From Cupriavidus taiwanensis (GTDB lineage Bacteria > Pseudomonadota > Gammaproteobacteria > Burkholderiales > Burkholderiaceae), in the NCBI RefSeq assembly GCF_900249755.1, contig NZ_LT976854.1:1321322-1385321 (forward strand): a stretch of 64,000 bases of DNA, given 5' to 3'. The notes under the pieces were generated by a model. That model searched no databases, had not been told where the DNA came from, and was given only the letters and a program-made list of their open reading frames with translations. Both the position numbers and the translations under genes were made by a program. Position 1 is the first letter of the stretch, and each line of letters starts with the position of its first letter. This document shows, one piece after another, positions 43,047-59,373 of the stretch.

Positions 43047-43707
43047 GATGTCTCCTTATAGCGGCGAACCGCCAAGGTGGAAGATGGGCGCCTGAAGACG
43101 CCTCTGCGTGACTCTCGGTCGAAGAACAGCTGAGCCGTTCTAGTGCTATACGGTATGTGATATATCAGGTAAGTCAAGCGTATTCGTCGCGGCTGTGCAG
43201 CATCCGGCCGCGTTACCTGGTGCCGGAATCGCCTCACATCGCCCGCGACTGTTGCGCGGGAAGCATCAAAGGCGGCTCCGCCAGCATCCGGAGTCTTTGG
43301 AAATCAAGCAGTTGGCGTACGTCGGCGGATCAATCGGCCGACGCACGGCAACCGCAAGCATGCCGGGGATCGCGCTATCGAAAAACCGGGAAAACGATCG
43401 GTTGGGGAAAGTCCCTAGATGCAGACATGAATGTCTGGGGGGTCATCTGAACAAGGCTTCGTGGCGCTAGCCAGGGCTTGCGAGGGAGCGCGGGAGCACG
43501 CGTGAGCTGGCGCAGCGGGGATGCGCGCGAAGCGCTGGAGGGATGTCGCTGCGGAACAGCCGGCAAACCAGCCAGCAAACAGCCAGTGAACAGCAGGAGG
43601 GAAGGAGGTGGCGGCCGTGCTTGCCGTGAAGGTCGCAAGGGATGCCGGCCGCTACAGCCCTTGCCAGAGGCGCGCTTCAGCGCGAAAGCGCCGCGCGCCG
43701 GCCGGAA
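43047..43707. other. Gene-free region between oxlT and a small membrane gene
   Basis: 661 bp. From the left it contains the oxlT leader, the shared operator block (43151-43168) and then 540 bp with only short frames. A perfect 16-bp palindrome CAGACATGAATGTCTG-type element (arms CAGACAT/ATGTCTG at 43422-43428 and 43431-43437, 2-base centre) is the only other structure seen; several G follow the second arm. Confidence 0.5.
43151..43168 (-). promoter_or_regulatory. Shared oxalate-locus operator block, copy A (oxlT)
   Basis: CGGTATGTGATATATCAG (plus-strand reading) includes the palindrome TGATATATCA. An identical 18-mer lies upstream of oxc at 59165-59182, with further copies at 43996-44013 (16/18) and 59356-59373 (14/18). 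Read toward oxlT, a TTGACT hexamer (43172-43177) and a TATAGC hexamer (43145-43150) lie on either side with a 21-bp gap, so the block overlaps the likely promoter. The regulator is not identified; the AT-rich palindrome fits a GntR- or LysR-type protein. Confidence 0.8.
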
Positions 43708-43926
43708 TCAGGCATAGGCCAGTTCACCGGCAGCCGGCACGATGCGCGAGGCGCTGGCGCGGCCCGCGCCGTCGCGTTGCTGGTCCGAGCCCAGGCCGGC
43801 GAAGCGGCCATGGTCCTGCGCGGTGACCAGCACATCCATGGGCAGGCGCGTGGCCAGCAGCGTGGTCACGCCCACACCGACAGCGATCAGGGCCAAGCCA
43901 AGGGCGACGAGAAGAGCGACTTCCAT
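43708..43926 (-). CDS. Small membrane protein under the oxalate-type operator
   Basis: 72 residues. One hydrophobic segment (VALLVALGLALIAVGVGVTTLLAT) is followed by a polar tail RFAGLGSDQQRDGAGRASAS. No family is recognised. GGAG lies about 8 bases before the ATG, and copy B of the shared operator (43996-44013) sits 70 bp upstream on its strand, as for oxlT and oxc. This makes it a probable, uncharacterised member of the oxalate regulon, for example a membrane partner of the antiporter or formate dehydrogenase (inference only). Confidence 0.75.
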   Translation of the reverse strand: MEVALLVALGLALIAVGVGVTTLLATRLPMDVLVTAQDHGRFAGLGSDQQRDGAGRASASRIVPAAGELAYA

Positions 43927-43995
43927 TTGAAAACTCCAGTAGCGTTGTGATCAGGAGTTTTCATTATATGCTGCGCCGCACTATGTGTAAATATC

Positions 43996-44013
43996 CTGTA
44001 TGTAATATATCAG
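43996..44013 (-). promoter_or_regulatory. Shared oxalate-locus operator block, copy B (small membrane protein)
   Basis: CTGTATGTAATATATCAG matches 16 of 18 bases of the oxlT/oxc copies; one change alters the core palindrome (TAATATATCA). It lies in the AT-rich 133-bp gap between the small membrane gene and a LysR gene whose 3' end faces it, so it can only serve the minus-strand small gene. Confidence 0.75.
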
Positions 44014-44059
44014 TAGAGGTTTTGCACTAATCCAACATACAGGCTGCAGGCCCCCGGGG

Positions 44060-44983
44060 TCATGCCGCCGTGGGTTCGCGGCGGCGCATCGGCGGCTCCT
44101 GGTACTCCTGCCCGCGCAAGGCGTCCCAGATCGCGGCCGCGTTGGGCTTGAGCGAGCGGCTCTTGCGCCGCACCAGCATCACGGTCGATGTCACCTGTGG
44201 CCGCAGCGGCCGCATCACGGCGGCCGGATGCATGCCGCCGGCCTGCGCCCGCGACGGCACCACGCCGATGCCCAGTCCCAGCGCCACCATGCCGAACACC
44301 GCGGCAAAATGGCCCAGCAACTGCAGCGAGCCCGCGCGCACGTGGTAGCTGCTGAGCGCCCTTTCGACCGCGGGCTGCATGCCGCATTGCTGGTCCAGCG
44401 TCAGCACGCTGGCATCGCACAAATCCCCCCACCCTACGGTATCGTGCTGGGCCAGCGGGTGCCTGGCGGGCAGCACGGCGTGATAGTCATCGACACACAA
44501 TGGCTCGCAGTACAAGTCATCGCCGGCGCGCGGATCGGTGGCGATGCCGAAATCGACCTCGCCGCTGCGCACGCTCTGCAGCACCGATTCCTGCGAACGG
44601 TCCTTCAGGTGGATGTCGATCGCCGGCCACGCCTGGCGGCACCCGGCAAGCCAGGTCGGCAGCGACATCGAACTCAGCACCGGGTCCGACGCGATCTGCA
44701 CCAGGCCCTGGCAGGGCCGGCTGGCGCTCTGGCTGTCGCGCAAGGTCTGCTCCACTTCCTCGATCAGGTGGCAGATGCGCTGCGACAGGTGCTGGCCCGC
44801 GTCGGTCAGCTCCACCTGGCGCGTGGTGCGGTCGAACAGCCGCTGGTCGATCTCTTCTTCCAGTTCGCGCACGCTGCGGCTGACCGCCGACTGCGTCAGG
44901 CCCAGTTCCACCGCGGCGCGGGTAAAGCTCTTGTGCCGCGCCACGGCGGCAAAGGCCTTCAGTTGCGGCAGCGAGATATTCAT
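44060..44983 (-). CDS. LysR-family transcriptional regulator
   Basis: 307 residues: wHTH about residues 5-63 (LKAFAAVARHKSFTRAAVEL, LTQSAVSRSVRELEEEIDQRL), effector domain about 90-295 with EVDFGIATDPRAG and FGMVALGLGIGVVPSR. GGAG about 8 bases before ATG. It is divergent from a second LysR gene at 45304, with 320 bp between. Its 3' end abuts the small membrane protein gene, whose operator copy B is at its terminator side. Whether it regulates the oxalate genes is unknown. Confidence 0.88.
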   Translation of the reverse strand: MNISLPQLKAFAAVARHKSFTRAAVELGLTQSAVSRSVRELEEEIDQRLFDRTTRQVELTDAGQHLSQRICHLIEEVEQTLRDSQSASRPCQGLVQIASDPVLSSMSLPTWLAGCRQAWPAIDIHLKDRSQESVLQSVRSGEVDFGIATDPRAGDDLYCEPLCVDDYHAVLPARHPLAQHDTVGWGDLCDASVLTLDQQCGMQPAVERALSSYHVRAGSLQLLGHFAAVFGMVALGLGIGVVPSRAQAGGMHPAAVMRPLRPQVTSTVMLVRRKSRSLKPNAAAIWDALRGQEYQEPPMRRREPTAA

Positions 44984-45303
44984 GGCCTGCTCCCCTGCCC
45001 CGCAACTGCACGGCTGAGGCGAGGCCTGTCTTCAGGCACGGCATGGCGCCGGGGGGCAGCCACGGCTGCGTTCGGTCCGGTCACGGTAGTCTCCTTGGTA
45101 TGGTCGTGGCTGTGGGCAGCCATCGTTGTTATGGGCCATCGGGATGGCCAGCGGCTGGCTCCTGCGCTGCCGGAGTGCCGGATTCGGGCGGGACATGGAA
45201 ATCTGACGATTGATGCTACTTGAATCTAAGATCAGCACTGCATAAAGTTTTTTATCGTTTGTATAGCGGATCGTTTATAGGTCGAGCAAGGGATGAAGAT
45301 CGG
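44984..45303. other. Gene-free region between divergent LysR genes
   Basis: 320 bp. The right half (45220-45290) is AT-rich and carries half-sites of the palindrome found at 46241 (separate entry). The left half has no evident motif. Confidence 0.5.
45241..45279 (+). promoter_or_regulatory. Candidate LysR binding region upstream of the 45304 gene
   Basis: CATAAA (45241-45246), ATCGTTTG (about 45253-45261) and ATCGTTTAT (45270-45278) resemble the arms of the perfect palindrome CATAAACGATCGTTTATG at 46241-46258. Repetition of these half-sites directly before the LysR start (25 bp) and after its stop suggests binding by the same LysR protein. Confidence 0.65.
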
Positions 45304-46245
45304 ATGAAGAACGCCACGCTGCGGCAGCTGAAGGTCTTCGAGACCGTTGCCCGCCATATGAGCTTTTCCCGCGCCGCCGAGGAACTGCACCTGACCCAGC
45401 CCGCGGTGTCGACCCAGGTGCGGCAACTGGAGCACCACGTGGGGCTGCCGCTGTTCGAGCAGCTCGGCAAGAAGATCTACCTGACGCCGGCGGGCCATGA
45501 AATGCTGCATTACAGCCGCAGCATCATCCAGCAGTTCCGCGAAGCCGAGGACGCCATGTCGCAACTCAAGGGCATCTCGGGCGGCCGCCTCAATGTCGCG
45601 GTGATCAGCGCTGGCGATTACTTCTTCCCGCGGCTGCTGGCCGAGTTCATGGACCGCCACGAGGGCGTGACGCTGAACCTGGCCGTGCACAACCGCGAGG
45701 AACTGCTGCACCAGCTGGCCGGCAACCTGACCGACCTGGCCGTGATGGTGCGCCCGCCCGAGGGCATGGACACCGTCAACGAGGCCTTTGCCCCGCACCC
45801 CTACGTGATCGTCGCCGCGCCCAGCCACCCGCTGGTGGGCGTGCGCGATATCCCGCTTGCCGAGCTGGCCGACGAAGCCTTTGTCTCGCGCGAGAAGGGC
45901 TCGGACACCTGGAACTCGATGCAGGAAGGCTTTGCCGGCCGGCTGTCGAATATGCGCATCGCGATGGAGATCAAGAGCACCGAGACCATCAAGCAGGCCG
46001 TGATCGCGAATATGGGCATCGCCTTCCTGTCGGCCCATACCGTCGGCCTGGAGCTGCAGGCGGGCAAGCTCGCCGTGCTCGATATCGAAGGCTTCCCGGT
46101 GATGCTCAACTGGTACGTGGTGCACCGCAAGAACAAGCGGCTGCCGCCGGTGGCGCTGGCATTCAAGCAGTTCCTGATGGAGGAAGGCGCCGACCTGATC
46201 CAGGCCATCACCGGCGTGGCAGGGCTGATCCGCCACGATGCATAA
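45304..46245 (+). CDS. LysR-family regulator, CbbR-like
   Basis: 313 residues. HTH (LRQLKVFETVARHMSFSRAA, LHLTQPAVSTQVRQLEHHVG) and an effector domain with NRETLL-type NREELLHQLAGNL, ETIKQAVIANMGIAFLSAHT, close to CbbR, the Calvin-cycle regulator, but no cbb genes are in the window. Oxalate- or C1-linked regulation is conceivable. I chose ATG 45304; the upstream frame is open but lacks homology. A perfect 18-bp palindrome overlaps its stop codon, and AT-rich half-sites lie before its start. Confidence 0.85.
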   Translation: MKNATLRQLKVFETVARHMSFSRAAEELHLTQPAVSTQVRQLEHHVGLPLFEQLGKKIYLTPAGHEMLHYSRSIIQQFREAEDAMSQLKGISGGRLNVAVISAGDYFFPRLLAEFMDRHEGVTLNLAVHNREELLHQLAGNLTDLAVMVRPPEGMDTVNEAFAPHPYVIVAAPSHPLVGVRDIPLAELADEAFVSREKGSDTWNSMQEGFAGRLSNMRIAMEIKSTETIKQAVIANMGIAFLSAHTVGLELQAGKLAVLDIEGFPVMLNWYVVHRKNKRLPPVALAFKQFLMEEGADLIQAITGVAGLIRHDA

Positions 46246-46258
46246 ACGATCGTTTATG
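46241..46258. promoter_or_regulatory. Perfect 18-bp palindrome CATAAACGATCGTTTATG
   Basis: It begins in the last codons of the LysR gene (stop TAA at 46243-46245) and reads identically on both strands. It is 92 bp upstream of the ATG of the next gene and AT-rich sequence follows (TTTAATTATCG). With the half-sites before the LysR gene, this is a likely LysR autoregulatory and target site. Confidence 0.8.
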
Positions 46259-46349
46259 GTTTCGCTATCAAACTTTAATTATCGTAAATCATCCGCCGTC
46301 CCTATGCTTGTCTCAACCCAACCGCCACCGTGCACCGGAGGAGACCAGC

Positions 46350-46655
46350 ATGAACCCCGCCCAGCAGGAAAGCCGCCACGCCGCCATCACCGTCGGTGCC
46401 GACAACCAGCCGATCCCGCGCGAGACCCAGCTCGCGGCCTACAACGCGGCGTTTATCGAACTGGGACTGCGCTTTCGCTGGGACGCCGCCATGTATGAAT
46501 GGCTGTGCGGCATCGAATGCGAAAAGGGGCGCGTGGCCCGCTACATCGAGGAACACCACCCTCACCTGCTGGCCGCCTACGACGCCGCCTTCCTCAGCGG
46601 GCTGATCTTCGAGAAAAAGAACGAGTACCTGCGCGCGGTCGGCCACCTCAACTGA
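46350..46655 (+). CDS. Conserved hypothetical protein
   Basis: 101 residues; soluble, charged, no signal peptide. Contains IPRETQLAAYNAAFIELGLRF and HHPHLLAAYDAAFLSGLIFEKK with a His pair. I do not recognise a family. GGAGGAG lies 8-9 bases before ATG, and the gene is a probable target of the LysR protein upstream, since the palindrome at 46241 lies in its promoter. It is followed by a strong bidirectional terminator. Confidence 0.65.
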   Translation: MNPAQQESRHAAITVGADNQPIPRETQLAAYNAAFIELGLRFRWDAAMYEWLCGIECEKGRVARYIEEHHPHLLAAYDAAFLSGLIFEKKNEYLRAVGHLN

Positions 46656-46673
46656 GCGGGCCCGATCGGTTCA

Positions 46674-46708
46674 CGGCGAGGCGCGCTAGCGCGGCCTCGC
46701 CGTTTTTT
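46674..46708. terminator. Bidirectional intrinsic terminator
   Basis: CGGCGAGGC (46674-46682) pairs with GCCTCGCCG (46694-46702) around GCGCTAGCGC, itself a palindrome, then TTTTTTG. It ends the 46350 gene and lies just before the end of the convergent DUF2269 gene. Confidence 0.8.
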
Positions 46709-46710
46709 GT

Positions 46711-47169
46711 TCAACTGACCTTGGCCACCATCAGGTAGAAAATGGCCAGGAACGAGAACAGCGCCGGAAAGCCCAGCCCGAACCACCACCAGAACAGGCG
46801 CCAGTAAGCGCGCGGCAACTGAGGGCCGGTGCACTCCAGCGCCACGTCGCGCATGCGCTTCTGCAGCCAGACCACCGGCAGCCAGCAGGCAATGGCGATG
46901 GCGTAAAGCACCACCGACCACTTCAGCCACGGCACCGACCACGAGAACCCGGCCATCTTCACCAGCGCATAGCCGGTCAGCGGCTGCAGGATGGCGGTGG
47001 AGGCGGTGAAGATCCAGTCGGCGATCACCACCATGCGCGCGGTCGCGGCGACGGTGCGGACATTGCGCGTCAGCGTCGCGCCGACCAGGTAGAAGGCGCT
47101 GCCCACGCCGGTGCCGAACAGGAAGGTGGCCGACATGATGTGCAGCCATTTCAGCGTGACGTAGTCCAT
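46711..47169 (-). CDS. DUF2269-family membrane protein
   Basis: 152 residues, four membrane segments: WLHIMSATFLFGTGVGSAFYL, MVVIADWIFTASTAILQPLTGYAL, WSVVLYAIAIACWLPVVWL and FWWWFGLGFPALFSFLAIFYLMV. It matches the DUF2269 family. The start overlaps the end of the SDR gene by 19 bp, so the two are cotranscribed. Function unknown; members are found with oxidoreductases. Confidence 0.82.
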   Translation of the reverse strand: MDYVTLKWLHIMSATFLFGTGVGSAFYLVGATLTRNVRTVAATARMVVIADWIFTASTAILQPLTGYALVKMAGFSWSVPWLKWSVVLYAIAIACWLPVVWLQKRMRDVALECTGPQLPRAYWRLFWWWFGLGFPALFSFLAIFYLMVAKVS

Positions 47170-48482
47170 GCCCGTTCCTCGGTCAGGTGCAGCCACCACA
47201 GCACGGCCAGCATCGGCACGTTCTTGCTGAGCGGGCCATAGGGATGCAGCCAGAATTCCGGCAGGCGCACGCTGATGATGGCGGTATAGCCCAGGATCAG
47301 CGCGATCTGCGCCAGCCACAGCCAGCGCGGGCGCCGCGGCAGCACGCACAGCACGCCGAACACCAGGTCGAGCAGCGCCGCGCCATAGAGCGCCAGCGGC
47401 TGCAGCGCCGGCGGCACGCCCGCGCGCGCAAGCAGCGCATAGCTGTCGGCCACCGGGTACAGCCCCAGCGACACCGCGGCGGTGACGATCCACACGAACG
47501 CCACGCTCCAGCGCAACAGCGGATGGATCCAGCGCTGCAGCGCCTGCGCGCGCAACGCGCTGCGCAGCCCCGGGGGGATGAATGCGGTGACGGCCAGCGG
47601 CGGCCGCCCGAGCACGCGCGCGAGCCCGGACGGATCGGCCACGTTGCCCTGCTCCAGCATGGTCAGCGCATCGCGCCCTAGCACGCCGCCGCTGGCGCGT
47701 TCGGCCAGCGGCATCACCGCCCGGGCCAGCGCGCGCGGCAGCGGCAACAGCCAGGCCTTGCCGCGCAAACCCAGGCCATGGCGCAGCGCATCCAGGTAGC
47801 CGGCCAGCGGCATCGGCGCCGGCCCCACCAGCGCCAGCCGGCCGCAACGCCATGGCGCTTCGCCGCCCCATTGCGCCAGCAAGGCCACGATGGCCTGCGC
47901 CACATCGTCGACATGGACCGGCTGCACCGGCTGCCTGCCGCCGCCGGGCAGTGCCAGGCAGGGCAGCGTCGCCAGCGCGCAGAACAGCTGCGCGCTGGTG
48001 CCGTCTGCGCCGAAGACCAGCGACGGCTGCAGCACGGCGGCGTCGATGCCAAGCCCGAGCAGGTGCTGGTCGGCGCTGCGCTTGCTGCGATGGAAGTCGG
48101 TCAGCGCGTGTTCGTCGGCACCCAGCGCCGACATCTGCACCACCAGCCGCACCCCCTGCCGCTGGCAGGCATCGAACAGCGCCTGCGGCGCGGCGCGGTG
48201 CAGCACGTCGAAGCGCTGCGTGGCGGTCTCGCGAAAAATGCCGACCAGGTTGACCACCGCGTCGACGTCCGCCAGCAGCGGCGCCCAGTCCGCGGCCGCC
48301 GTCATCCGCGCGAAATCGACGGCACGAAATTCGCTTGCCGTGCTGGCATGGCCGCGCTGCGGCGCTTCGGGTGCATCGTGCGCAGGCACGCGCCGCACAC
48401 CCGCTATCACATGGAATCCTCCAGCCAGCATGGCGGCGCAGGCGTGCCGGCCGATAAAGCCGCTGGCGCCGAGCACGAGCAC
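47151..48482 (-). CDS. NAD(P)-binding SDR-like domain fused to a DoxX-like membrane domain
   Basis: 443 residues. N-terminal Rossmann (LVLGASGFIGRHACA) with an atypical SDR core (VVNLVGIF, VVQMSALGAD) fits the NmrA/YwnB-like group. The C-terminal part (about 330-443) has four membrane segments (FVWIVTAAVSLGLYPVAD, LALYGAALLDLVFGVLCVL) of DoxX/DUF4149 type. No ATG fits the start: GTG at 48482 gives the standard N-terminus but has no ribosome binding site, and it is only 3 bp from the divergent DUF2938 start, so the true start is uncertain. Shares a transcript with the DUF2269 gene. Confidence 0.75.
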   Translation of the reverse strand: MLVLGASGFIGRHACAAMLAGGFHVIAGVRRVPAHDAPEAPQRGHASTASEFRAVDFARMTAAADWAPLLADVDAVVNLVGIFRETATQRFDVLHRAAPQALFDACQRQGVRLVVQMSALGADEHALTDFHRSKRSADQHLLGLGIDAAVLQPSLVFGADGTSAQLFCALATLPCLALPGGGRQPVQPVHVDDVAQAIVALLAQWGGEAPWRCGRLALVGPAPMPLAGYLDALRHGLGLRGKAWLLPLPRALARAVMPLAERASGGVLGRDALTMLEQGNVADPSGLARVLGRPPLAVTAFIPPGLRSALRAQALQRWIHPLLRWSVAFVWIVTAAVSLGLYPVADSYALLARAGVPPALQPLALYGAALLDLVFGVLCVLPRRPRWLWLAQIALILGYTAIISVRLPEFWLHPYGPLSKNVPMLAVLWWLHLTEERAWTTSR

Positions 48483-48485
48483 GCG

Positions 48486-48986
48486 GTGGATGTGGCGGTG
48501 GTGCTGCGCCGCGCCGTGATCTCCGGCACCTGCGCCAGCCTGTTGTCCACCGGCATGCTCGCCTGCGGCGGCAGCGTCGACTGCGGCAGCGCCTTCGCGC
48601 CGGTCAATGCGGTCAGCCACTGGGTCTGGGGCGAACGGGCGGTGCATACCAACCGGCCGTCGGTGCGGCATACCGTGCTGGGCTACGTCATCCATCATGC
48701 GATGTCGGTATTCTGGGCGGCGTTCTACGAAGGCGCCATGGCCTTCGGCAACAGGCATGGCGCCGTCTGTCCCGCCGCGCGCCCCGCCGCCCCGGCGCGC
48801 GTGCTGGGCGGGCTGGCGGTAGCCGGCATTGCGTGCTTCGTCGACCTGAAGTGCACCCCCCATCGCCTTACACCTGGCTTCGAGCGCCGGCTGTCGCCCG
48901 GCATGCTGGCGCTGGTCTACGTGGCCTTCGGGCTGGCGCTGCCGCTGGGAGCGATGCTGTTGCGGCGCGCGGGAAGGCCCACCTGA
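48486..48986 (+). CDS. DUF2938-type small membrane protein
   Basis: 166 residues: ISGTCASLLSTGMLACG, GSAFAPVNAVSHWVWGE and HTVLGYVIHHAMSVFWAAFYE match the DUF2938-type core with four hydrophobic segments. A GTG start at 48486 lies 3 bp from the minus-strand SDR start. An ATG at 48411 in the same frame would give an N-terminal extension of 25 residues overlapping the SDR gene. Function unknown. Confidence 0.7.
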   Translation: MDVAVVLRRAVISGTCASLLSTGMLACGGSVDCGSAFAPVNAVSHWVWGERAVHTNRPSVRHTVLGYVIHHAMSVFWAAFYEGAMAFGNRHGAVCPAARPAAPARVLGGLAVAGIACFVDLKCTPHRLTPGFERRLSPGMLALVYVAFGLALPLGAMLLRRAGRPT

Positions 48987-49270
48987 GTCCGCCCCGCGTC
49001 CTCCGCTCCTGCCCGTCCTGCTGCACGCAGCGCCAGTAATTTTCACACGGCTCTCCCGCTTTTTACCGTATCCGCCGCGCCGGGCGGCCCTTCGCGTTGC
49101 CCCCGGCAACGCGCCACACCAGCCGTGCAAGCTCCACGCCACCGCGCACCCGCAGGCCAGTTCTCGGGCGGGCATGATCGTTGCGGCGGCGAGCGCCCGG
49201 CCCGGGCCGCCGTTCCTCCACCCACCTGAGCATCGGCGCGCCCCCGCCCACCCCAACCGGAGAGACCACC

Positions 49271-50170
49271 ATGTTCATGCACAACAAGCGACTGCAGTAC
49301 ACCGTGCGCGTTTCGCGTCCCGACCCCGGCCTGGCCAATCTGCTGCTGGAGCAGTTTGGCGGCCCGCAGGGCGAACTGGCCGCGGCCTGCCGCTACTTCA
49401 CGCAGGCCCTGGCCGAGGAAGACCCCGGCCGCAAGGACATGCTGCTCGATATCGCCACGGAGGAGCTGAGCCACCTGGAGGTGATCGGCTCGATCATCGC
49501 CATGCTCAACCGCGGCGCCAAGGGTGAACTGGCGGAAGGGCTGGACCAGCAGGCCGAGCTCTACCGCTCGCTGCAAGGCGCCGGCAACGACAGCCACGTG
49601 ACCCAGGTGCTGTTCGGCGGCGGGCCGGCGCTGGTCAACTCGGCCGGCGTGCCGTGGACCGCGGCCTATGTCGACACCATCGGCGAGCCCACCGCCGACC
49701 TGCGCTCCAACATTGCCGCCGAGGCGCGCGCCAAGATCATCTACGAGCGGCTGATGAACGTGACCGACGACCCCAGCGTGCAGGAGGCGCTGGGTTTCCT
49801 GATGACGCGCGAGATCTCGCACCAGAAGTCGTTCGAGAAGGCGCTGTACTCGATCACGCCCAACTTCCCGCCGGGCAAGACGCCGGGCGACCCGCAGTTC
49901 GCCAACGTCTATTTCAAGATGTCGCAGGGCGAGGCCATGCGCGGGCCCTGGAATGCGGACCGCAATTTTGTTTTTGTCGAGACCCCGACGCCCGCGGTCG
50001 ACGGCGGCGACGGCACCGCGCAGGTGGACCTGCCCGCCGAGCAGCAGGGCACGCTGGAAGCCTTTGCCATGCGCGGCGCCTCCGATCCGCAGAGCGATCC
50101 GCTGACCGGCGCCGAGCTGGGTTCAGGCCAAGCCGAGGCGGATGACCCGCAGCAGCGCCCGCAGCGCTGA
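49271..50170 (+). CDS. Manganese catalase
   Basis: 299 residues, non-haem dimanganese catalase. Ligands as in the Lactobacillus enzyme: E35 (GELAAACRYF), E65 and H68 in TEELSHLE, E151 (AEARAKIIYER) and H184 (EISHQKSF). It removes hydrogen peroxide in the cytoplasm. Preceded by GGAGAG 8 bases before ATG. Convergent with mntH 23 bp downstream, so manganese uptake and a Mn-dependent catalase are side by side. The C-terminal 50 residues are acidic and Gln-rich. Confidence 0.92.
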   Translation: MFMHNKRLQYTVRVSRPDPGLANLLLEQFGGPQGELAAACRYFTQALAEEDPGRKDMLLDIATEELSHLEVIGSIIAMLNRGAKGELAEGLDQQAELYRSLQGAGNDSHVTQVLFGGGPALVNSAGVPWTAAYVDTIGEPTADLRSNIAAEARAKIIYERLMNVTDDPSVQEALGFLMTREISHQKSFEKALYSITPNFPPGKTPGDPQFANVYFKMSQGEAMRGPWNADRNFVFVETPTPAVDGGDGTAQVDLPAEQQGTLEAFAMRGASDPQSDPLTGAELGSGQAEADDPQQRPQR

Positions 50171-50193
50171 CTCGCACGCGGGCCAGCCGCCCG

Positions 50194-51474: not shown

Positions 51475-51493
51475 CAGCGCACGCCCCGCACCG

Positions 51494-51619
51494 CTATACC
51501 GCTGGCGGCAGCAGCCGCGCCAGCATGGATGCGGCGCCCGCGGCGACGATAAACAGGCCCAGTGCCATGCGCACGGGATGGCAGCGCCAGCGCCGCCAGA
51601 ACCAGCCGTCTCGCTCCAT
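51494..51619 (-). CDS. Small single-segment membrane protein upstream of mntH
   Basis: 41 residues: basic N-terminus MERDGWFWRRWRC, then hydrophobic VRMALGLFIVAAGAASMLARLL. AGGAG stands 8 bases before the ATG at 51619 (another in-frame ATG 6 bases upstream is too close to it). It lies 19 bp before mntH on the same strand, so the two are probably cotranscribed. Unrecognised; a helper for Mn transport is an inference from position. Confidence 0.6.
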   Translation of the reverse strand: MERDGWFWRRWRCHPVRMALGLFIVAAGAASMLARLLPPAV

Positions 51620-51897
51620 CGCCATTCTCCTGACGGGCCGGACCACCGCGGTGCCGGCAGACTTGCCGCAGCGCAAGGATCGTTCCCGCGCGGCAAAGGC
51701 AGCCGCGCGCTCGCTGCGGCGCACGCGGTGCGCGGCGTGGTAATTCCGGCGCTGCGGCGGGCGTACCGGCTTGCAAGCTTTACGCGCGACCGCGCCGTGC
51801 TGCCGTGTGCGCGGGAATCGTCGTAACATACCGCTCCCAGCCCGTAGCTCGAACCCGCCGGCGGCAGCCGGACGCACACCCGCCCCACGCCCGCTCC

Positions 51898-52485
51898 ATG
51901 GCCACGCGACGCACCGACGAAGACTTTATCCAGGAACTGACACGCCTGCTGTGCAGCGAAGGCGTCTCGTCGCTGACCATCGGCGAGATCGCGCAGCGCC
52001 TGCGCTGCTCGCGGCGGCGCCTGTATGAGATCGCGCCGACCAAGGAGGCGCTGTTCGTCGGCATCTGCCGCGACGTGCTGGCGGCCAACCTGGAGCGCGG
52101 CTTCGCCGCCGCGCGCCGCGAGAGCGATGCCGCGCGCGCCGTGTCGGCCTACCTGCACGCCGCGCTGAATACCTCGGGATTGAGCAAGGCGGCGCTGTCC
52201 GACCTCGATGCCATCGACAGCGGCCGGGCCGTGTTCGACGCGTACCAGCTCGCGCGCGTGCGCGGGCTGGAAAGCCTGCTCGAGGCCGGCATGCGGCAAG
52301 GACTGCTGGCTGCGCACAACCCGCGGCTGGTGTCCGAGGCCATCCTGGGCGCCGCGCACCGCCTGCGCAACCAGCAGTTCCTGAAGGACACCGGGCTGAA
52401 GATGGGGGATGCCTTCAGCGAGTTCTACGAGATCATCCTGAATGGCCTGCTGCGCAGGCCTGGCCCGGCGCCCGGCAAGACCTAG
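51898..52485 (+). CDS. TetR-family transcriptional regulator
   Basis: 195 residues. N-terminal HTH: LTIGEIAQRLRCSRRRLYEIAPTKEALF, a TetR domain in which the recognition helix has RRLYE. C-terminal domain is helical (RVRGLESLLEAGMRQGLL). Divergent from the small-protein/mntH operon with 278 bp between; downstream lies the Bug-protein gene on the other strand. It may control mntH, but no operator was identified. Confidence 0.85.
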   Translation: MATRRTDEDFIQELTRLLCSEGVSSLTIGEIAQRLRCSRRRLYEIAPTKEALFVGICRDVLAANLERGFAAARRESDAARAVSAYLHAALNTSGLSKAALSDLDAIDSGRAVFDAYQLARVRGLESLLEAGMRQGLLAAHNPRLVSEAILGAAHRLRNQQFLKDTGLKMGDAFSEFYEIILNGLLRRPGPAPGKT

Positions 52486-52515
52486 CCGGGCGCCCGGGCG
52501 GCGGCACCCTCCCCG

Positions 52516-53532
52516 CTATTGCGGCGGGATATTGGCAGAGCGGATCACTCGGCCCCACTTGGCATACTCGTCCTGCACGAAGCGGCCGGCGTCGTCGGGC
52601 GTGGCCACCACCGGAATCAGCGCGGCGGCATCCAGCGTGGTACGCAGGTCCGGGTTCTTCTGGGCCTGGTTGATGACCTCGTTGAGCCGCGCCACTACAG
52701 GGGCCTGCGTCCCCTTGGGCACGAACGCGGCCATCCAGCCGACCACCTCGAAACCGGGCACGCCGGATTCGGCGATGGTGGGAACGTCGGCCAACTGCGG
52801 TGCCCGTTTCGCGGTGGTCACGGCCAGCGCGCGCACCTTGCCGGATTTCACCTGCGTGACCGCGGCGCCAATGTTGGCGAACAGGAAGTCCACATGCCCG
52901 CCGATCAATGCAGCCATGGCTTCCGAAGGCCCGCCGTAGGGCACGTGCGTGTATTCAAGCCCCTTCACATCCTGCTTGAGCAGCTCGGCCGCCAGGTGCG
53001 CGGAGCTGCCGACGCTGCCCGACGCGTAGTTCACCTTGCCGGGCCGCGCCTTGACGTATGCCAGGAACTCGGAAAAGGTCTTGGCGGGGAAGCTGTTGCT
53101 GACCAGCAGCACATTGCCGTTCAAGCCGAATACCGCGACAGCCTGGAAGTCCTTCAGCGGGTCATAGGGCGTTGCCGCGATCAGCCGTGGGTTGATCGCA
53201 TGGGTAACGTTGGTGCCGAGCAGCAACGTGTAGCCGTCCGGCGCCGCACGTGCCACCAGGTTCGCGCCGATGGTCGCGCCGGCGCCGGGCTTGTTCTCCG
53301 CCACCAGCGGCTGCCCCAGCGCATCGCCCATGTACTTGGCGAAGGTCCGAGCGGTCAGGTCGGTCACGCCGCCCGGCGCGAACGGCACCACCAGCCGGAT
53401 CGGCCGCGTGGGATACGCGTCGGCGGCGTGCGCGGACGTGCCGACGATGCCAAGGGCCAGCACGCAGGCGCGCACCGCATGGAGCGCGCGCATTGGTCGA
53501 ATGGCCCTGGGTTGCGGCAAGTGGTTTGCCAT
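52516..53532 (-). CDS. Bug/TctC-family periplasmic binding protein
   Basis: 338 residues with signal peptide (basic start then VRACVLALGIVGTSAHA-AD) and the Bug family features: YPTRPIRLVVPFAPGG at the mature N-terminus, GAGATIGANLVARAAPDGYTLL, KPGKV-type FLAYVKARPGKVNYA and VPYGGPSEAMAAL. It is a solute-binding receptor, usually for carboxylates, of unknown ligand here. GGAGGAG lies 6 bases before the chosen ATG at 53532; an earlier ATG overlaps that site. The next gene on the same strand is an acyl-CoA synthetase, so an aromatic or fatty acid ligand is conceivable. Confidence 0.88.
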   Translation of the reverse strand: MANHLPQPRAIRPMRALHAVRACVLALGIVGTSAHAADAYPTRPIRLVVPFAPGGVTDLTARTFAKYMGDALGQPLVAENKPGAGATIGANLVARAAPDGYTLLLGTNVTHAINPRLIAATPYDPLKDFQAVAVFGLNGNVLLVSNSFPAKTFSEFLAYVKARPGKVNYASGSVGSSAHLAAELLKQDVKGLEYTHVPYGGPSEAMAALIGGHVDFLFANIGAAVTQVKSGKVRALAVTTAKRAPQLADVPTIAESGVPGFEVVGWMAAFVPKGTQAPVVARLNEVINQAQKNPDLRTTLDAAALIPVVATPDDAGRFVQDEYAKWGRVIRSANIPPQ

Positions 53533-53608
53533 GGTGGTCTCCTCCAATTGTGGTCGGTCAGGCGGGAATGCCGGCCCTCTTGCGGGACCGTGCGGTAGCT
53601 GTGGCGCT

Positions 53609-55186
53609 TCAGGCCACCTGCCGCTCCTGGCCGCCCCAGTAGCGGCCGCGGATGGCCTTGCGGTCGATCTTGCCCAGCGCCGTCAGCGGCAGCGCATCGG
53701 CGAACACAACCTGCTTGGGGGCGTTGACCACGCCCTTGTGGCGCGTCACGTGCGCGATCACGTCGGCCTCGGTCAGAGCAGTGCCCGGGCGGGCCACCAC
53801 CACGGCGGTCACGGCCTCGCCCCACTTGGGGTCGGGCACGCCGATCACCGCTGACATGGCGATGGCCGGATGCAGCGCCAGGCAATGCTCGACTTCGCTC
53901 GGGTAGACGTTGAAGCCGCCGCTGATGATCATGTCCTTGGCGCGGTCGACCAGGTACAGGAAGCCTTCGCTGTCGCAGCGTGCCATGTCGCCGGTATGGA
54001 GCCAGTCGCCGGCAAAGACTTTGGCGTCTTCTTCCGGCCGGTTCAGGTAGCCCTCCATCACCAGCGGGCCGCGCACGCACAGCTCGCCCACCTCGCCCGG
54101 CGCGACTTCGCGCAGCTGCGCGTCGAGCAGCCGGACCTGGTTGCCCGGGATCACCTTGCCGCACGAGCGCAGGCGCTCGGGGTGGTCCGGGTCGTGGTCG
54201 CGCGGGCTCAGGTAGCTGACGCACATCGGCGCTTCGGCCTGGCCGTAGATCTGCCCGAACACCGGGCCGATGCGGCGCAGCGCTTCGGCCAGGCGCACCG
54301 GTGCGATCGGCGCGGCGCCGTAGAGCACCAGTTCCAGGCTGGACAGGTCGGCCGTGTCCAAACCGTCGCAATCGAGCAGCCCGTAGATCTGCGTGGGTAC
54401 CAGGAAGGTCAGGTTGATGCGGTGCTCGGCGACGCGGCGCAGGAAATCCGCCGGGCTGAACTTGTCGCACAGGTAGATGGTGCCGCCGCGCAGCAGCGTC
54501 GGCAGGAACAGGCTGCCGGACGCGTGCGAGATCGGCGTGGTGACCAGGTAGCGCACCTGTGCCGGCCATTCGTAGGTCGCGAGCATGTACTGCAGCATCG
54601 TGACCGAGGTGCGGTGGGTATGCAGGATGCCTTTCGAGCGCCCGGTGGTGCCGCCGGTGTACGACAGCTTGCTGATCTCGGTCGGATCATCGCCGGGGAC
54701 CACGGGGGCGCCGTCGAAGGCCGCCGCGGCGCGGGCCAGGCCGGGGCCGAACTCGCCGTCGTCCAGCGGCAGCAACTGCAGCGGGGTGCCAGCGGCGAGC
54801 GCGCGGGCCCGCTCGCCGAAGCGCGCGTTGTCGACCACCAGCGCCTGCACGCCCGCGTCTTCCAGCACGAAGGCATGGTCCGCCTGCGCCGCCATCGGGT
54901 GCAGCGACACGGCCTTCAGTCCGGCCAGTTGCGCGGCGATGATGGCCGCGACGGCCTCGGCGCGATTGCCGACCAGGAAGGCCACCACATCCTGGCGCGC
55001 CAGCCCGCGCGCGGCAAACAGCCGTGCGATGCGCGCGCTTTGCTGCGCCAGCGCTTCATAGCTCAGCGTGACGTCGTCGCCCACGACGGCGGGTACGCCA
55101 GGCCGCGCGCGCAGCGCCGCGGTATAGAGCTGGCCGACGGTCGCACCGCCGTGGACGACCGAAGCCGCCGAAGCCTGACGGGCCAT
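53609..55186 (-). CDS. AMP-forming acyl-CoA synthetase
   Basis: 525 residues of the adenylate-forming superfamily: P-loop YTGGTTGRSKG, IYGQAEAPM (A5-like), GDWLHTGDMA, DRAKDMIISGGFNVYPSEVE and the C-terminal catalytic Lys in LTALGKIDRKAI. Activates a carboxylic acid to its CoA thioester. Upstream of the Bug gene on the same strand (77-bp gap), it probably acts on an acid imported with the Bug receptor. An inverted repeat CGGTACC/GGTACCG lies 50-77 bp before its start. Confidence 0.88.
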   Translation of the reverse strand: MARQASAASVVHGGATVGQLYTAALRARPGVPAVVGDDVTLSYEALAQQSARIARLFAARGLARQDVVAFLVGNRAEAVAAIIAAQLAGLKAVSLHPMAAQADHAFVLEDAGVQALVVDNARFGERARALAAGTPLQLLPLDDGEFGPGLARAAAAFDGAPVVPGDDPTEISKLSYTGGTTGRSKGILHTHRTSVTMLQYMLATYEWPAQVRYLVTTPISHASGSLFLPTLLRGGTIYLCDKFSPADFLRRVAEHRINLTFLVPTQIYGLLDCDGLDTADLSSLELVLYGAAPIAPVRLAEALRRIGPVFGQIYGQAEAPMCVSYLSPRDHDPDHPERLRSCGKVIPGNQVRLLDAQLREVAPGEVGELCVRGPLVMEGYLNRPEEDAKVFAGDWLHTGDMARCDSEGFLYLVDRAKDMIISGGFNVYPSEVEHCLALHPAIAMSAVIGVPDPKWGEAVTAVVVARPGTALTEADVIAHVTRHKGVVNAPKQVVFADALPLTALGKIDRKAIRGRYWGGQERQVA

Positions 55187-55235
55187 GTTGTCTCCCTGGA
55201 ATCGTTCTGGTCAGGCTCCCAATGTAGGGGCCGCT

Positions 55236-55263
55236 CGGTACCACGTCAATGCTTTTGGTACCG
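55236..55263 (-). promoter_or_regulatory. Inverted repeat in the acyl-CoA synthetase promoter
   Basis: CGGTACC (55236-55242) and GGTACCG (55257-55263) are perfect inverted arms with a 14-bp AT-rich spacer (CACGTCAATGCTTT-like), a two-half-site operator. TTTTGG precedes the right arm. No regulator is assigned. Confidence 0.6.
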
Positions 55264-55347
55264 AAAAGGCCGGGTTAATGCGGGGCGAAGCAAAGGGCGA
55301 CGCACACACAGCGGAACGGTGCCGGGGTTACTCGCGCAGCAGGCGCT

Positions 55348-55785
55348 TCAGGCTTGCTCCTTGACCTGGCTCTCCAGTTCGACCAGCCGCTTCTTCAGCG
55401 CCCGCTCTTCCTGGAAACGCACGGTCTCGTCGCGGATCACCGCGACGATGCCGGTGATGGCCCCCGCGTCATCCTTGAGCAGCGCCACGGTGAAGGCGAT
55501 CGACATGGCCTTGCCGTCCTTGTCCACCGCCGGCACCTTGAGCAGGTCATGGCCGTAGCGCGTGATGCCGGTCGCCATGGTCTTGTCATAACCTTCCCAG
55601 TGCCGCCCGCGCAGCCGCTCGGGGATGATCAGGTCCAGCGACTGGCCCATGGCCTCGGCCTGGGTGAAGCCGAACATGCGCTCGGCCGCCGGATTCCACA
55701 GCGTGATGGCGCCCTTGGCGTCGGAGATGATGATGGCGTCGCCGATGGCGGACACCAGTTGCGCGTAGTCGATCTGCTCTGTCAT
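55348..55785 (-). CDS. PAS-domain protein
   Basis: 145 residues with one PAS/PAC domain: AIIISDAKGAITLWNPAAERMFGF, SLDLIIPERLRGRHWEGYDK, ALLKDDAGAITGIVAVIRDET. No HisKA, GGDEF or HTH domain follows, so it is a stand-alone sensor, ending in a short coiled helix RFQEERALKKRLVELESQ. It is 155 bp downstream of the frc stop on the same strand, but cotranscription is uncertain. Possible ligands include haem or small aromatic compounds; none can be read. Confidence 0.8.
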   Translation of the reverse strand: MTEQIDYAQLVSAIGDAIIISDAKGAITLWNPAAERMFGFTQAEAMGQSLDLIIPERLRGRHWEGYDKTMATGITRYGHDLLKVPAVDKDGKAMSIAFTVALLKDDAGAITGIVAVIRDETVRFQEERALKKRLVELESQVKEQA

Positions 55786-55940
55786 GGGGATTCCCTCTCG
55801 TCGTCTGCAAACGGCGGCCGGCCGGGGCACGCCGGTGCCATCAAGGTAGCGTGCCACATCGCGGCGCCACAAGCAAAAACGCCGGAGCCCGCTGTGCGCG
55901 CGGCCCCGGCGCTGGCGCCGGCACGGGTGCCGGCACTGCG

Positions 55941-57191
55941 TCAGATCACCTGGGCCTCGCGCAGGCGCTTGATGTCTTCCGCACCGTAGCCCAGGCCGGC
56001 CAGCACCTCTTCGCTATGCTCGCCCAGCAGCGGCGACCCGGTGATCTCCGGCTTCAGGTCGGAGAACTTGATCGGGCTGCCCACCGTCAGGTAGGTGCCG
56101 CGCTCCTTGTGCGGCACCTCGGTGATGCTGCCGCTGGCGCGCAGCGACGGATCGGCGGCGATTTCCTTCATCGACAGCACCGGCGAGCACGGGATATCGA
56201 ACTTGCGCAGGATGTCGACCGCCTCGTACTTGGTCTTGTCGGCCAGCCACTCTTCGATGGTGTTGAAGATATCGAAGATATGCGGCTGGCGTGCCTTGGC
56301 GGTGGCGTAGTTCGGATCGGTAATCCATTCCGGCTTGCCCAGTGCCTTGCAGATCGGCTCCCAGGCATGGCCCTGGATGGTGAAGTAGATATAGGCGTTG
56401 GGATCGGTTTCCCAGCCCTTGCACTTCAGCACCCAGCCCGGCTGGCCGCCGCCGCCGGCGTTGCCGCCGCGCGGCACCACGTCGCTGAAGGTGCCGTGCG
56501 GGTACTGCGGGTACTCTTCCAGGTAGCCCAGGCGGTCCAGGCGCTGCTGGTCGCGCAGCTTGACCCGGCACAGGTTCAGTACCGCATCCTGCATCGACAC
56601 CGCCACCTTCTGGCCCTTGCCGGTCTTGTCGCGGCCGATCAGCGCGGTCAGGATACCGATCGCCAGGTGCATGCCGGTGTTGGAATCGCCCAGCGCCGCG
56701 GCGGACACGGTCGGCGGGCCGTCCCAGAAGCCGGTGGTCGAGGCCGCGCCGCCGGCGCACTGCGCCACGTTCTCGTAGACCTTCAGGTCTTCATAGTGGT
56801 GGCCGTCGCTGAAGCCCTTGACCGAAGCCACGATCATCTTCGGATTCAGCTCGTTGATGCGTTCCCACGAGAAACCCATGCGGTCCAGCGCGCCCGGGCC
56901 GAAGTTCTCGACCAGCACGTCCGATTCGCGGATCAGCTGCTCCAGGATCTTCTTGCCTTCCGGCTTCTTGGTATCCAGCGTCAGGCTGCGCTTGTTGGAG
57001 TTGAGCATGGTGAAGTACAGCGCATCGACATCCGGGATGTCGCGCAGCTGGGTGCGCGTCACGTCGCCGGACCCGGGGCGCTCGACCTTGATCACGTCGG
57101 CGCCGAACCATGCCAGCAGCTGGGTGCAGGCGGGACCCGCCTGGACGTGCGTGAAGTCGATGATCTTGATGCCGTTGAGTGGGAGGTTCAC
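55941..57191 (-). CDS. frc: Formyl-CoA:oxalate CoA-transferase
   Basis: 416 residues, family III CoA-transferase. It swaps CoA from formyl-CoA to oxalate, making oxalyl-CoA and formate, and so recycles CoA in oxalate breakdown. The catalytic D169 is in [12 protein letters not shown]-terminal [20 protein letters not shown], and [21 protein letters not shown] are characteristic of Oxalobacter-type Frc, and most of the length aligns to that family. Start is GTG (57191), with AGGAG 6 bases before it. It lies 40 bp downstream of oxc. Confidence 0.95.
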
Positions 57192-57231
57192 GTTCGTCTC
57201 CTATTGGATTAGGGGGAGAAATTCGGGTGAA

Positions 57232-58971
57232 TTACTTCTTGGCCGAGCTTTGCGGATTCAGGTTGGTCAGGCGGCCGCTTTCGGTGCCGGCGGCGGGGTC
57301 GATCACGGCGTTGACCAGCGTCGGCTTGCCCGAGCGCAGCGCTTCGTTGACCGCCGCTTCCAGTTCCGCCGGCGTGGTGACGTTGGCTCCGACCCCACCG
57401 AACGCTTCCATCATCTTGTCGTAGCGCGCGCCCGGGACGAAGGTCGTGACCGCCGGGTCGGTGCCGCCGGTGGGGTTCTTGTCGATGCCCTTGTAGACGC
57501 CGTTGTTGTTGAAGATGACGATGCAGACCGGCAGGTTGTAGCGGCAGATGGTCTCGACTTCCATGCCCGAAAAACCGAACGCACTGTCGCCGCACAGCGC
57601 CAGCACCGGCTTGCCGGTCTCGACCGCCGCGGCCACCGCATAGCCCATGCCCACGCCCATCACGCCCCAGGTGCCCACGTCCAGGCGCTTGCGCGGTTCA
57701 TACATGTCGATCACGGCGCGGGCGTAGTCGAGCGTGTTGGCGCCTTCGTTGACAAACGAGATGCCCGGGTTGGCCCTGACCACCTCCTTCAGCACGCCCA
57801 GCGCACCGTGGAAGTTCATCGGCGCGGCTTCCCTGGCCCTGGCCAGGGTCTCGGCCATCTTCGCCAGGTTGGTGTCCCTGCGGTCCGCCACCGCGTTCAG
57901 CCATTCGGCGCCCGGTTTGGCGAAGTCATTGCCGACCTTGTCGAGCAGCGCCGCGACGCACGAGCCGATGTCACCGACAACCGGCGCGGCGATGGCGACG
58001 TTGCTGTCCATCTCGGTCGGCGCGATGTCGACCTGGATGAACTGCTTGGGCTTGCCCCAGGTCTTGCCCTTGCCGTGCGACAGCAGCCAGTTCAGGCGGG
58101 CCCCGACCAGCAGCACCACGTCGGCTTCGGCCAGCACGTACGAGCGCGCGGCCGAGGCCGATTGCGGATGGGTATCGGGCAGCAAGCCCTTGGCCATCGA
58201 CATCGGCAGGTACGGAATGCCGGTCTTCTCGACCAGCGCGCGCAGGTCCGCCTCGGCGCGGGCGTAGGCGGCGCCCTTGCCGATCAGGATCAGCGGCCGC
58301 TTCGCGCTCTTCAGCAGCGCGACAGCGCGGTCGACCGAGTCCGGCGCGGGCAGCTGCCGCGGCGCCGGGTCCACCACCTTGATCAGCGACTGCTTGCCCT
58401 TCTCGGCTTCCAGCGACTGGCCCAGCAGCTTGGCCGGCAGGTCCAGGTACACGCCGCCCGGACGGCCCGACACCGCGGCGCGAATCGCACGCGCGACGCC
58501 GACGCCGATGTCTTCCGCATGCAGCACGCGGAACGCGGCCTTGGCGTGCGGGCGGGCGATGGCCAGCTGGTCCATCTCTTCGTAGTCGCCCTGCTGCAGG
58601 TCGACGATCTCGCGCTCGCTCGAGCCGCTGATCAGGATCATCGGGAAGCAGTTGGTGGTGGCATGCGCCAGCGCCGTCAGCCCGTTGAGGAAGCCCGGCG
58701 CGGAGACGGTCAGGCAGACGCCCGGCTTCTGCGTCAGAAAGCCCGCGATCGCCGCGGCGTTGCCCGCGTTCTGCTCGTGGCGGAAGCTGATGACGCGCAT
58801 GCCGTTGGCCTGCGCCAGACGGGCCAGATCGGTGACCGGAATGCCGGGCAGGCCGTAGATGTTTTCGATGCCGTTCAGCTTCAGCGCGTCGATGACCAGA
58901 TGAAACCCATCGGTCTGGGCCTGATGTGCTTCCGCGGCGTGACGCTGCAGCTCGTTTCCGACTTCTGCCAT
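57232..58971 (-). CDS. oxc: Oxalyl-CoA decarboxylase
   Basis: 579 residues, thiamine-diphosphate enzyme that converts oxalyl-CoA to formyl-CoA and CO2. Seen: [22 protein letters not shown] at the N-terminus, the catalytic Glu in [11 protein letters not shown], the ThDP-binding stretch [14 protein letters not shown]...NNNGVYKG, and [10 protein letters not shown] of the ADP-binding type. AAGGAAG precedes the ATG by about 7 bases. With frc 40 bp later it forms the core of oxalate degradation. Its 437-bp upstream region holds two copies of the shared operator. Confidence 0.95.
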
Positions 58972-59164
58972 GGTTGCTTCCTTCTATGCAAATTGACTGG
59001 GGTGGGAATTTTTCTGGTTCAGGCTGCCGCGGGAGTGCTGTGGGCCCGTTTCGCTACGACTTCCGACATGCTTGGTCTCCTGGTTGGACTTCTGTTCGTG
59101 GTGCGCGGGGGCTGTGCCCTGCCTGGGTCTGCGCCGGTTCGGATCGACCGGTCTTGATGACATA

Positions 59165-59182
59165 CGGTATGTGATATATCAG
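59165..59182 (-). promoter_or_regulatory. Shared oxalate-locus operator block, copy C (oxc)
   Basis: CGGTATGTGATATATCAG, identical over 18 bases to copy A before oxlT, and preceded in both by AC/TA followed by an ATAC motif giving CATAC-G-GTATG here, an inverted repeat with one central base. Read toward oxc, a TTGCCG hexamer (59187-59192) lies beyond it, as a possible -35. Confidence 0.8.
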
Positions 59183-59355
59183 AGAACGGCAAGCAATTTT
59201 CCATCTCCGCCACCAACTTTCGTCAGTGCACCGCAGCAAACGTGGCCGTATCTGCGTTCAAATCAGCGCAAATGCTCAATCCCAGCCATTTATGCGCATT
59301 TCGCACGAATGCCGCTCCTAGATCCGAAAGCGACTCAAACGTCGAATTCTGGCTC

Positions 59356-59373
59356 TAGATATATCACATACAT
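59356..59373 (-). promoter_or_regulatory. Shared oxalate-locus operator block, copy D (oxc distal / pntB end)
   Basis: Plus strand TAGATATATCACATACAT; its reverse complement ATGTATGTGATATATCTA matches 14 of 18 bases of copies A and C (all of GTATGTGATATATC). It is between the pntB stop (37 bp away) and copy C, so it likely acts in concert with copy C on oxc. Confidence 0.65.

Follow-up and report, generated by a model that had tools for sequence, protein, structure and literature searches.

The described systems closest to the oxalate gene cluster treated here, from Cupriavidus taiwanensis, are the oxalyl-coenzyme A (CoA) pathways of Cupriavidus necator H16 and Paraburkholderia (formerly Burkholderia) phytofirmans PsJN. 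In H16, deletion of frc-oxc abolishes growth on oxalate, and deletion of apbA2, a PanE2 homologue, impairs it (Claassens et al. 2020, PMC7486775); the cluster described below shares with H16 both frc-oxc and a nearby gene for a PanE2-like CoA-acylating glyoxylate dehydrogenase. In PsJN, where an oxc mutant loses oxalotrophy (Kost et al. 2014, PMC3886118), oxlT, oxc and frc likewise lie in one cluster. What sets our locus apart is its regulatory side. The main text of the H16 study contains the word 'regulator' once and 'GntR' nowhere, and its available text reports neither a common operator nor a small membrane protein; the available text of the PsJN study mentions neither a regulator nor a small gene; the words GntR and regulator are also absent from the available text of PMC12927642 and PMC10192776. 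Our literature search, outside which lay subscription papers and regulon databases, showed, among the papers listed, no described GntR regulator or operator of oxalate genes, and no small membrane protein linked with oxalate and GntR. A third point of comparison is the FCD (FadR) subfamily of GntR regulators, with which the system has in common the GntR and FCD domains, a probably palindromic AT-rich operator, and a regulator gene near its putative targets with a site of its own; it differs in that the regulator exceeds the cut-off of no NCBIfam model, and in its link to an unnamed small membrane protein.

The DNA analysed is a stretch of 64,000 nucleotides, hereafter the window, corresponding to C2:1321322-1385321 of the C. 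taiwanensis genome (G000). A short sequence block recurs in it upstream of an oxalate/formate antiporter gene (oxlT1), of the oxalyl-CoA decarboxylase gene (oxc) and of a gene for a 72-residue membrane protein. Taken together, the evidence makes it probable that this block is the operator of a single oxalate/oxalyl-CoA regulon, that it is read by a GntR/FCD protein encoded just outside the window, and that the 72-residue gene is a member of the regulon.

Probable operator sites at the oxalate genes

The first-pass annotation had described an 18-bp block that is identical before oxlT1 and oxc, with a 16/18 copy before the 72-residue gene and a 14/18 copy further upstream of oxc. The first two copies are indeed exact, and the third carries two mismatches to the 18-mer. 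The fourth is present near 59356, but it is inverted: an exact 14-bp core, GTATGTGATATATC, lies there on the minus strand, which accounts for the 14/18 match. All copies are found upstream of minus-strand genes, at approximately 105 bp (oxlT1), 70 bp (72-residue gene) and 194 and 385 bp (oxc), as had been stated, and chance identity had rightly been judged improbable, since 0 occurrences were expected across 100 dinucleotide shuffles. No core site with at most one mismatch occurs between positions 44011 and 59167 of the window.

A genome-wide search showed that unrelated genes are not commonly preceded by the block. If one mismatch at most is allowed, 8 core sites are found in the 5.95-Mb genome (reversed-pattern control, 0), and each of them is located before an oxalate gene, namely oxlT1, the 72-residue gene, oxc (two sites), frc2 (two sites), a panE/apbA2-like gene and a second oxlT gene (oxlT2); with at most two mismatches there are 10 sites, versus 3 for the reversed control. 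Seven of the eight sites lie within 24 kb, and the eighth precedes oxlT2 on a separate stretch (L010). The sites of frc2 and of the panE-like gene, together with gntR, are located just past the end of the window, out of view of the first-pass annotation: frc2 has two sites in opposite orientation 160 bp apart (positions 1945 and 2105 of L009), as at oxc, the panE-like gene has one 34 bp upstream (L009), and gntR, which lies between the two, is preceded at 153 bp by a two-mismatch variant, GTATATGGTATATC. For these paired sites, at oxc (191 bp apart) as at frc2, DNA looping could be conceivable. The first chromosome holds a single site with at most two mismatches, GTATGCGATATATT (G000:C1:1750851-1750864), which is overlapped by long open frames of both strands. 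A chance origin of the block was rejected on account of the shuffles and the genome-wide reversed control; that the entire region was recently duplicated was rejected because the flanks of the copies differ. The full operator is probably a 20-bp palindrome, GTATGTGATATATCACATAC, of which most copies would retain one half plus TATC. The palindrome is matched with at most one mismatch by 26 of 288 distinct 36-mers taken around sites, all of which were preselected for at most one core mismatch, so that the core invariance in their base statistics is built in.

Both Frc proteins exceed their NCBIfam cut-offs, OxlT2 matches TIGR04259 with 580 bits (cut-off 335), and the panE-like protein matches a 2-dehydropantoate 2-reductase subfamily model above cut-off; values for the window genes are listed in Table 1. 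In the light of the H16 deletion phenotypes, the site-bearing genes thus correspond to the known oxalyl-CoA pathway plus its transporters.

The site is also conserved within the genus. Sixty Cupriavidus genomes, sampled from a larger group, were searched for the core with at most one mismatch, and it was present in 56 of them, while the reversed control gave one match in each of 5. We then counted distinct upstream regions among the fetched genus loci that have a site within 450 bp (at most two mismatches in the case of gntR). A site precedes oxc in 31 of 32 upstreams (two sites in 19 of the 32), oxlT2 in 9/9, panE in 16/16, frc2 in 38/51, and tpp2, a gene for a different thiamine pyrophosphate (TPP) enzyme, in 14/14; a variant site precedes gntR itself in 46 of 50. 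Of the 13 frc2 upstreams without a site, 10 are listed by name; 7 of these 10 belong to mapped loci, and in all 7 frc2 is downstream of tpp2. The oxlT1 operator is kept in 29 of 30 fetched orthologous loci, the thirtieth (L041) ending short of it and a longer stretch (L156) showing the site. In three genomes (G019, G040 and G042) oxlT1 is missing from the locus and the site precedes the first formate dehydrogenase-like gene instead. Conservation in orthologous promoters therefore holds among the fetched loci at the 72-residue gene (see below), oxc, oxlT2 and panE.

At oxlT1, oxc, frc2, oxlT2 and tpp2 the site comes after a conserved CTTG element and before the gene start. This placement directly behind a conserved element could suggest that the block is itself a promoter element, or the site of a global factor, rather than a pathway-specific operator. 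However, the 5.95-Mb genome contains no more than 8 copies, each of them in the same pathway, and the block is absent from the four genus genomes that lack gntR, which makes such a function highly improbable. If the block is an operator, its position between CTTG and the start would fit repression by blocking RNA polymerase. Read as sigma-70 promoters, the metabolic promoters conserve CTTG, but no good -10 element was seen at approximately 17 bp; as their -10 is thus unclear, activation is also possible.

A GntR/FCD protein as candidate regulator

The product of gntR is likely to be the regulator that reads the operator block. It combines an N-terminal GntR winged helix (PF00392, 46.4 bits against a cut-off of 27) with a C-terminal FCD domain (PF07729, 95.1 bits against 24.3). 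All 13 listed matches to NCBIfam equivalogs (PhnR, NanR, LldR, GlcC, PdhR and others) fall below cut-off, the best being TIGR03338 PhnR with 107 bits against 271.5. At E<=1e-60 the protein was found in 56 of the 60 genus genomes, and these are the same 56 that have the site. The other four (G015, G038, G049 and G057) are without site, gntR, oxc hit and 72-residue gene alike.

There is a second candidate, a LysR-type regulator whose gene adjoins the 72-residue gene. If it read the block, the GntR protein would merely travel with the cluster. Its gene is present in 55 of the 60 genomes, missing from the four gntR-less ones plus G023, and a distribution almost equal to that of the site is a point against assigning the block to GntR. 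The assignment is further weakened by two observations: gntR paralogues share a nearly identical recognition helix, so similar that telling them apart by this helix was abandoned, and in the wider family the pattern also matches genomes without gntR, 18 of which are listed with GTATGTGATATAGC. The latter sequence is a one-mismatch form of the core, and its 18 listed genomes belong to genus group g11, none with a gntR match. As for LysR, no match was obtained at the threshold used in G023, a genome with gntR and two sites; this favours GntR only slightly within the genus, a single separating genome being a weak test. Outside the genus, the site precedes the small gene and gntR, and sits between gntR and tpp2. 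On these sequence-based grounds we prefer GntR to the LysR-type protein, which we regard as an improbable reader of the block.

In the mechanism that we propose, the GntR/FCD protein would bind the operator block and most likely repress oxlT1-fdhBA, oxc-frc1, frc2, panE and oxlT2, and it might be released by oxalate or by a CoA derivative, oxalyl-CoA being a guess.

The 72-residue gene, gntR and oxlT1

The 72-residue gene was found in 53 of the 60 genus genomes, many of which have a second, weaker match elsewhere. In all 30 fetched orthologue loci an operator lies 70-72 bp before its ATG, with a perfect core in 7 and the same G-to-A change in 23. Outside Cupriavidus the gene has a different neighbour. 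Among 249 family genomes, gntR was found in 117 and the small protein in 102, and in 74 of the 88 genomes outside the genus that have gntR, the small gene is its immediate upstream neighbour, in the same orientation; the 14 genomes without this adjacency all belong to genus group g10, and G187, the one that was fetched, has the small gene by profile search (L304). When gntR is at least 78% identical, the small gene adjoins it in 27 of 27 named non-Cupriavidus loci (from Paraburkholderia, Caballeronia and Burkholderia-labelled strains, and retrieved via tpp2) and in 28 of 29 family loci, of which 15 were fetched through the small gene itself. The start of gntR was assigned by a first-ATG rule in 58 loci with both genes, a few of which cover the same place, and by eye in L192. 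In 41 of the 58 it falls within the small gene, by 11-26 bp; in 6 it follows that gene at 10-93 bp, and in 11 it is placed further upstream, ambiguously. Moreover, all 18 Paraburkholderia-type loci have a site with 2-3 mismatches at 70-73 bp from the small gene, on its upstream side, a match reached by 0-4 of 300 shuffles. In Cupriavidus, by contrast, the small gene adjoins gntR in none of 61 fetched gntR loci with room for it (some of them from the same genome). The simplest history would be an ancestral operon of operator, small gene and overlapping gntR that was split in Cupriavidus, where the small gene now stands beside oxlT1, with both the operator and its spacing retained; the gene would presumably have moved in that direction. 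The earlier proposal that the 72-residue protein is a candidate component of oxalate metabolism is thus supported by the conserved operator and by the position directly before gntR in other genera. Judged by its sequence context, the gene appears to be a true member of the oxalate regulon; the biochemical role of its product is an inference.

The median ratio of nonsynonymous to synonymous substitution rates (dN/dS) of the gene is 0.21 over 431 of 435 pairs (four were dropped as too close or saturated), indicating that the frame is a translated gene. Its product matches no Pfam-A or NCBIfam family above cut-off, and two relatives match none in Pfam; sub-cut-off matches to PorA, PgfA and a leader-peptide model were rejected as a family assignment. 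The AlphaFold2 model (mean predicted local distance difference test, pLDDT, 67) has a confident helix at residues 2-27 (pLDDT 93-94 over residues 1-20), a weaker helix at 30-40 and, after these, a tail without order. From the basic residues that follow the helix and the short, acidic N terminus, the C terminus is probably cytosolic, and with it probably the conserved A..HGRF.GL stretch, whose HGRF.GL motif is invariant in 14 of 14 aligned small proteins from three groups. A distant paralogue, 44% identical over 61 residues, is encoded between LysR-like and acyl-CoA dehydrogenase-like genes (G000:C2:254670-254918; minus strand of L134, 3671-3919), and no operator with at most two mismatches occurs in the surrounding 8-kb stretch.

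The gene has a sigma-70 type promoter, and a closely similar stretch is visible in its orthologues. A TGC.GC..GCAGCA-like sequence just before the -10 element (window 43969-43980) recurs, by eye, in all three of Cupriavidus, Paraburkholderia and Caballeronia; possibly a further factor has an inverted-repeat site of its own here. Between promoter and gene, the leader can fold into a hairpin in which the GGAG ribosome-binding site is paired. The same stem occurs in four other genus leaders that were folded (z -2.7 to -3.4), and a hairpin also covers the ribosome-binding site in 3 folded Caballeronia leaders (z -1.5 to -1.9), the stem being kept with two-sided changes (AACUC/GAGUU in Cupriavidus, GGCUC/GAGCC in Caballeronia). 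The Paraburkholderia hairpin, which is positioned ahead of the ribosome-binding site, stands out little from shuffles (z -0.9 to -1.5). The search for Rfam families around the small gene gave one sub-threshold match only.

Short membrane proteins that are paired with transporters include AcrZ, KdpF and YjiX, the last with BtsT. The 72-residue protein resembles these in being short and putatively co-regulated with transport genes, and differs from them in that its conserved partner is a transcription regulator, with overlapping frames. One reading is that it does no more than assist or stabilise OxlT, as an accessory subunit for instance, and that the connection with gntR is one of co-regulation without contact. 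The product is a predicted small single-pass membrane protein and its gene lies 0.66 kb upstream of oxlT1 in the window. Of the 60 genomes, 49 have a listed oxlT1 orthologue (>=85% identity), and in a fiftieth (G012) the orthologue is cut by a contig end; all 50 have the 72-residue gene, and three genomes with gntR (G001, G023 and G042) have neither. On the other hand, G006, G019 and G040 carry the small gene without an oxlT1 orthologue, which rules out a strict dependence, and in other genera it is gntR and not oxlT that the small gene overlaps. We therefore regard a role confined to OxlT as possible, though somewhat doubtful. The overlapping frames outside Cupriavidus, together with the leader hairpin, could also mean that the small frame serves as a leader for translational coupling to gntR, with an inert product. 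Yet in Cupriavidus the gene is under purifying selection away from gntR, and the HGRF.GL motif is invariant across the three groups, so that this explanation appears quite unlikely. In the mechanism that we propose, the small protein would act at the membrane while oxalate is taken up, in concert with OxlT, GntR or both. A more specific version, in which it is produced together with GntR from the overlapping genes and is a membrane anchor or transport sensor that holds or inactivates GntR at the membrane while OxlT moves oxalate, is put forward as tentative and on balance unlikely.

Several further results do not sit easily with membership of the small gene in a GntR regulon. The three genomes G001, G023 and G042 keep gntR and sites without the 72-residue gene, which must then be dispensable. 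The operator at its promoter lies upstream of the -35 element, approximately 49 bp before the presumed transcription start, a spacing that is kept across genera; in this it is unlike the metabolic genes, and control could be positive, weak or partial. The pairing also fades with more distant gntR: at 65-77% identity the small gene is found in 3 of 10 family loci (L286, L287 and L304), and among 23 named loci below 78% the only match (L203) is weak (E 0.04) and was admitted by hand. In 9 Caballeronia-type loci, finally, the site before the small gene is a degenerate one with 4 mismatches, a match that 14-31 of 300 shuffles reach; in 8 of the 9 it lies at 68-71 bp.

Table 1. Positions of the genes, operators and promoter elements of the oxalate cluster (window coordinates unless given as genome coordinates).
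Feature	Position	Strand	Remark
Operator of oxlT1	43151..43168 (core 43153-43166)	+	exact 18-mer
Operator of 72-residue gene	43996..44013 (core 43998-44011)	+	one G-to-A change in core
Proximal operator of oxc	59165..59182	+	exact 18-mer
Distal inverted operator of oxc	59358..59371	-	exact 14-bp core; 191 bp from proximal operator
72-residue single-pass membrane protein gene	43708..43926	-	no known family
Leader hairpin of 72-residue gene	43929..43962	-	-11.9 kcal/mol, z -2.0
Sigma-70 type promoter of 72-residue gene	43963..43991	-	TTTACA-17-TATAAT; 11/12 consensus positions; just downstream of operator
gntR, GntR/FCD regulator	G000:C2:1386213-1386932		approximately 0.9 kb past window end
LysR-type regulator	44060..44983	-	Pfam
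oxlT1, oxalate/formate antiporter	41727..43046	-	TIGR04259, 625.5 bits (cut-off 335)
Formate dehydrogenase-like flavoprotein subunit	39836..41545	-	Pfam; downstream of oxlT1
Formate dehydrogenase-like molybdopterin subunit	36988..39810	-	Pfam
oxc, oxalyl-CoA decarboxylase	57232..58971	-	TIGR03254, 1041 bits (cut-off 739)
frc1, formyl-CoA transferase	55941..57191	-	TIGR03253, 734 bits (cut-off 504); after oxc

The window region between frc1 and the transport genes contains, at 52516-55186, genes for a TctC-type binding protein and an AMP-dependent CoA ligase.

Another TPP enzyme gene preceded by the operator block

At a threshold of E<=1e-200, oxc was found in 41 of the 60 genus genomes, and 15 genomes have gntR and sites without an oxc hit. 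Of these 15, 13 carry tpp2 instead, and the remaining two are a genome that is 54% complete (G012) and one in which the oxc hit is split over two frames (G053). The tpp2 gene occurs in 14 of the 60 genomes; G056 has both oxc and tpp2, on separate contigs and each with its own gntR copy. Where compared, the product is 26-29% identical to Oxc. The example at L133:2819-4573 (G033:C12; approximately 26% identical) scores 217 bits with TIGR03254, against a cut-off of 739.4, and the best solved-structure matches of the tpp2 product are 2-hydroxyacyl-CoA lyases. In the genus loci whose gene order was read (L133, L136, L137, L152, L153, L155, L157 and L162), tpp2 is followed by frc2. Relatives of tpp2 are encoded on at least 590 stretches, and the best 80 of these loci, whose labels are alpha-, beta- and gammaproteobacterial with a few others, were mapped; a formyl-CoA transferase match is present in 75 of them. 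Four of the other five (L209, L222, L241 and L243) end within 0.7 kb, leaving L240 as a real exception. The tpp2 gene may encode a second type of oxalyl-CoA decarboxylase; the alternative is lyase activity.

For the CoA-dependent degradation of oxalate in Cupriavidus and in Paraburkholderia-type bacteria, the analysis provides a candidate regulator, a candidate operator and a list of candidate genes, and through the regulon a possible second type of oxalyl-CoA decarboxylase has come to light. It also places an unstudied family of small membrane proteins in the oxalate pathway, by its operator, by its overlapping operon with the regulator and by co-occurrence. Should the small protein indeed act as a membrane anchor or transport sensor, an FCD-type GntR regulator would be controlled via a dedicated single-pass membrane partner, and uptake, not a soluble ligand alone, would set derepression.

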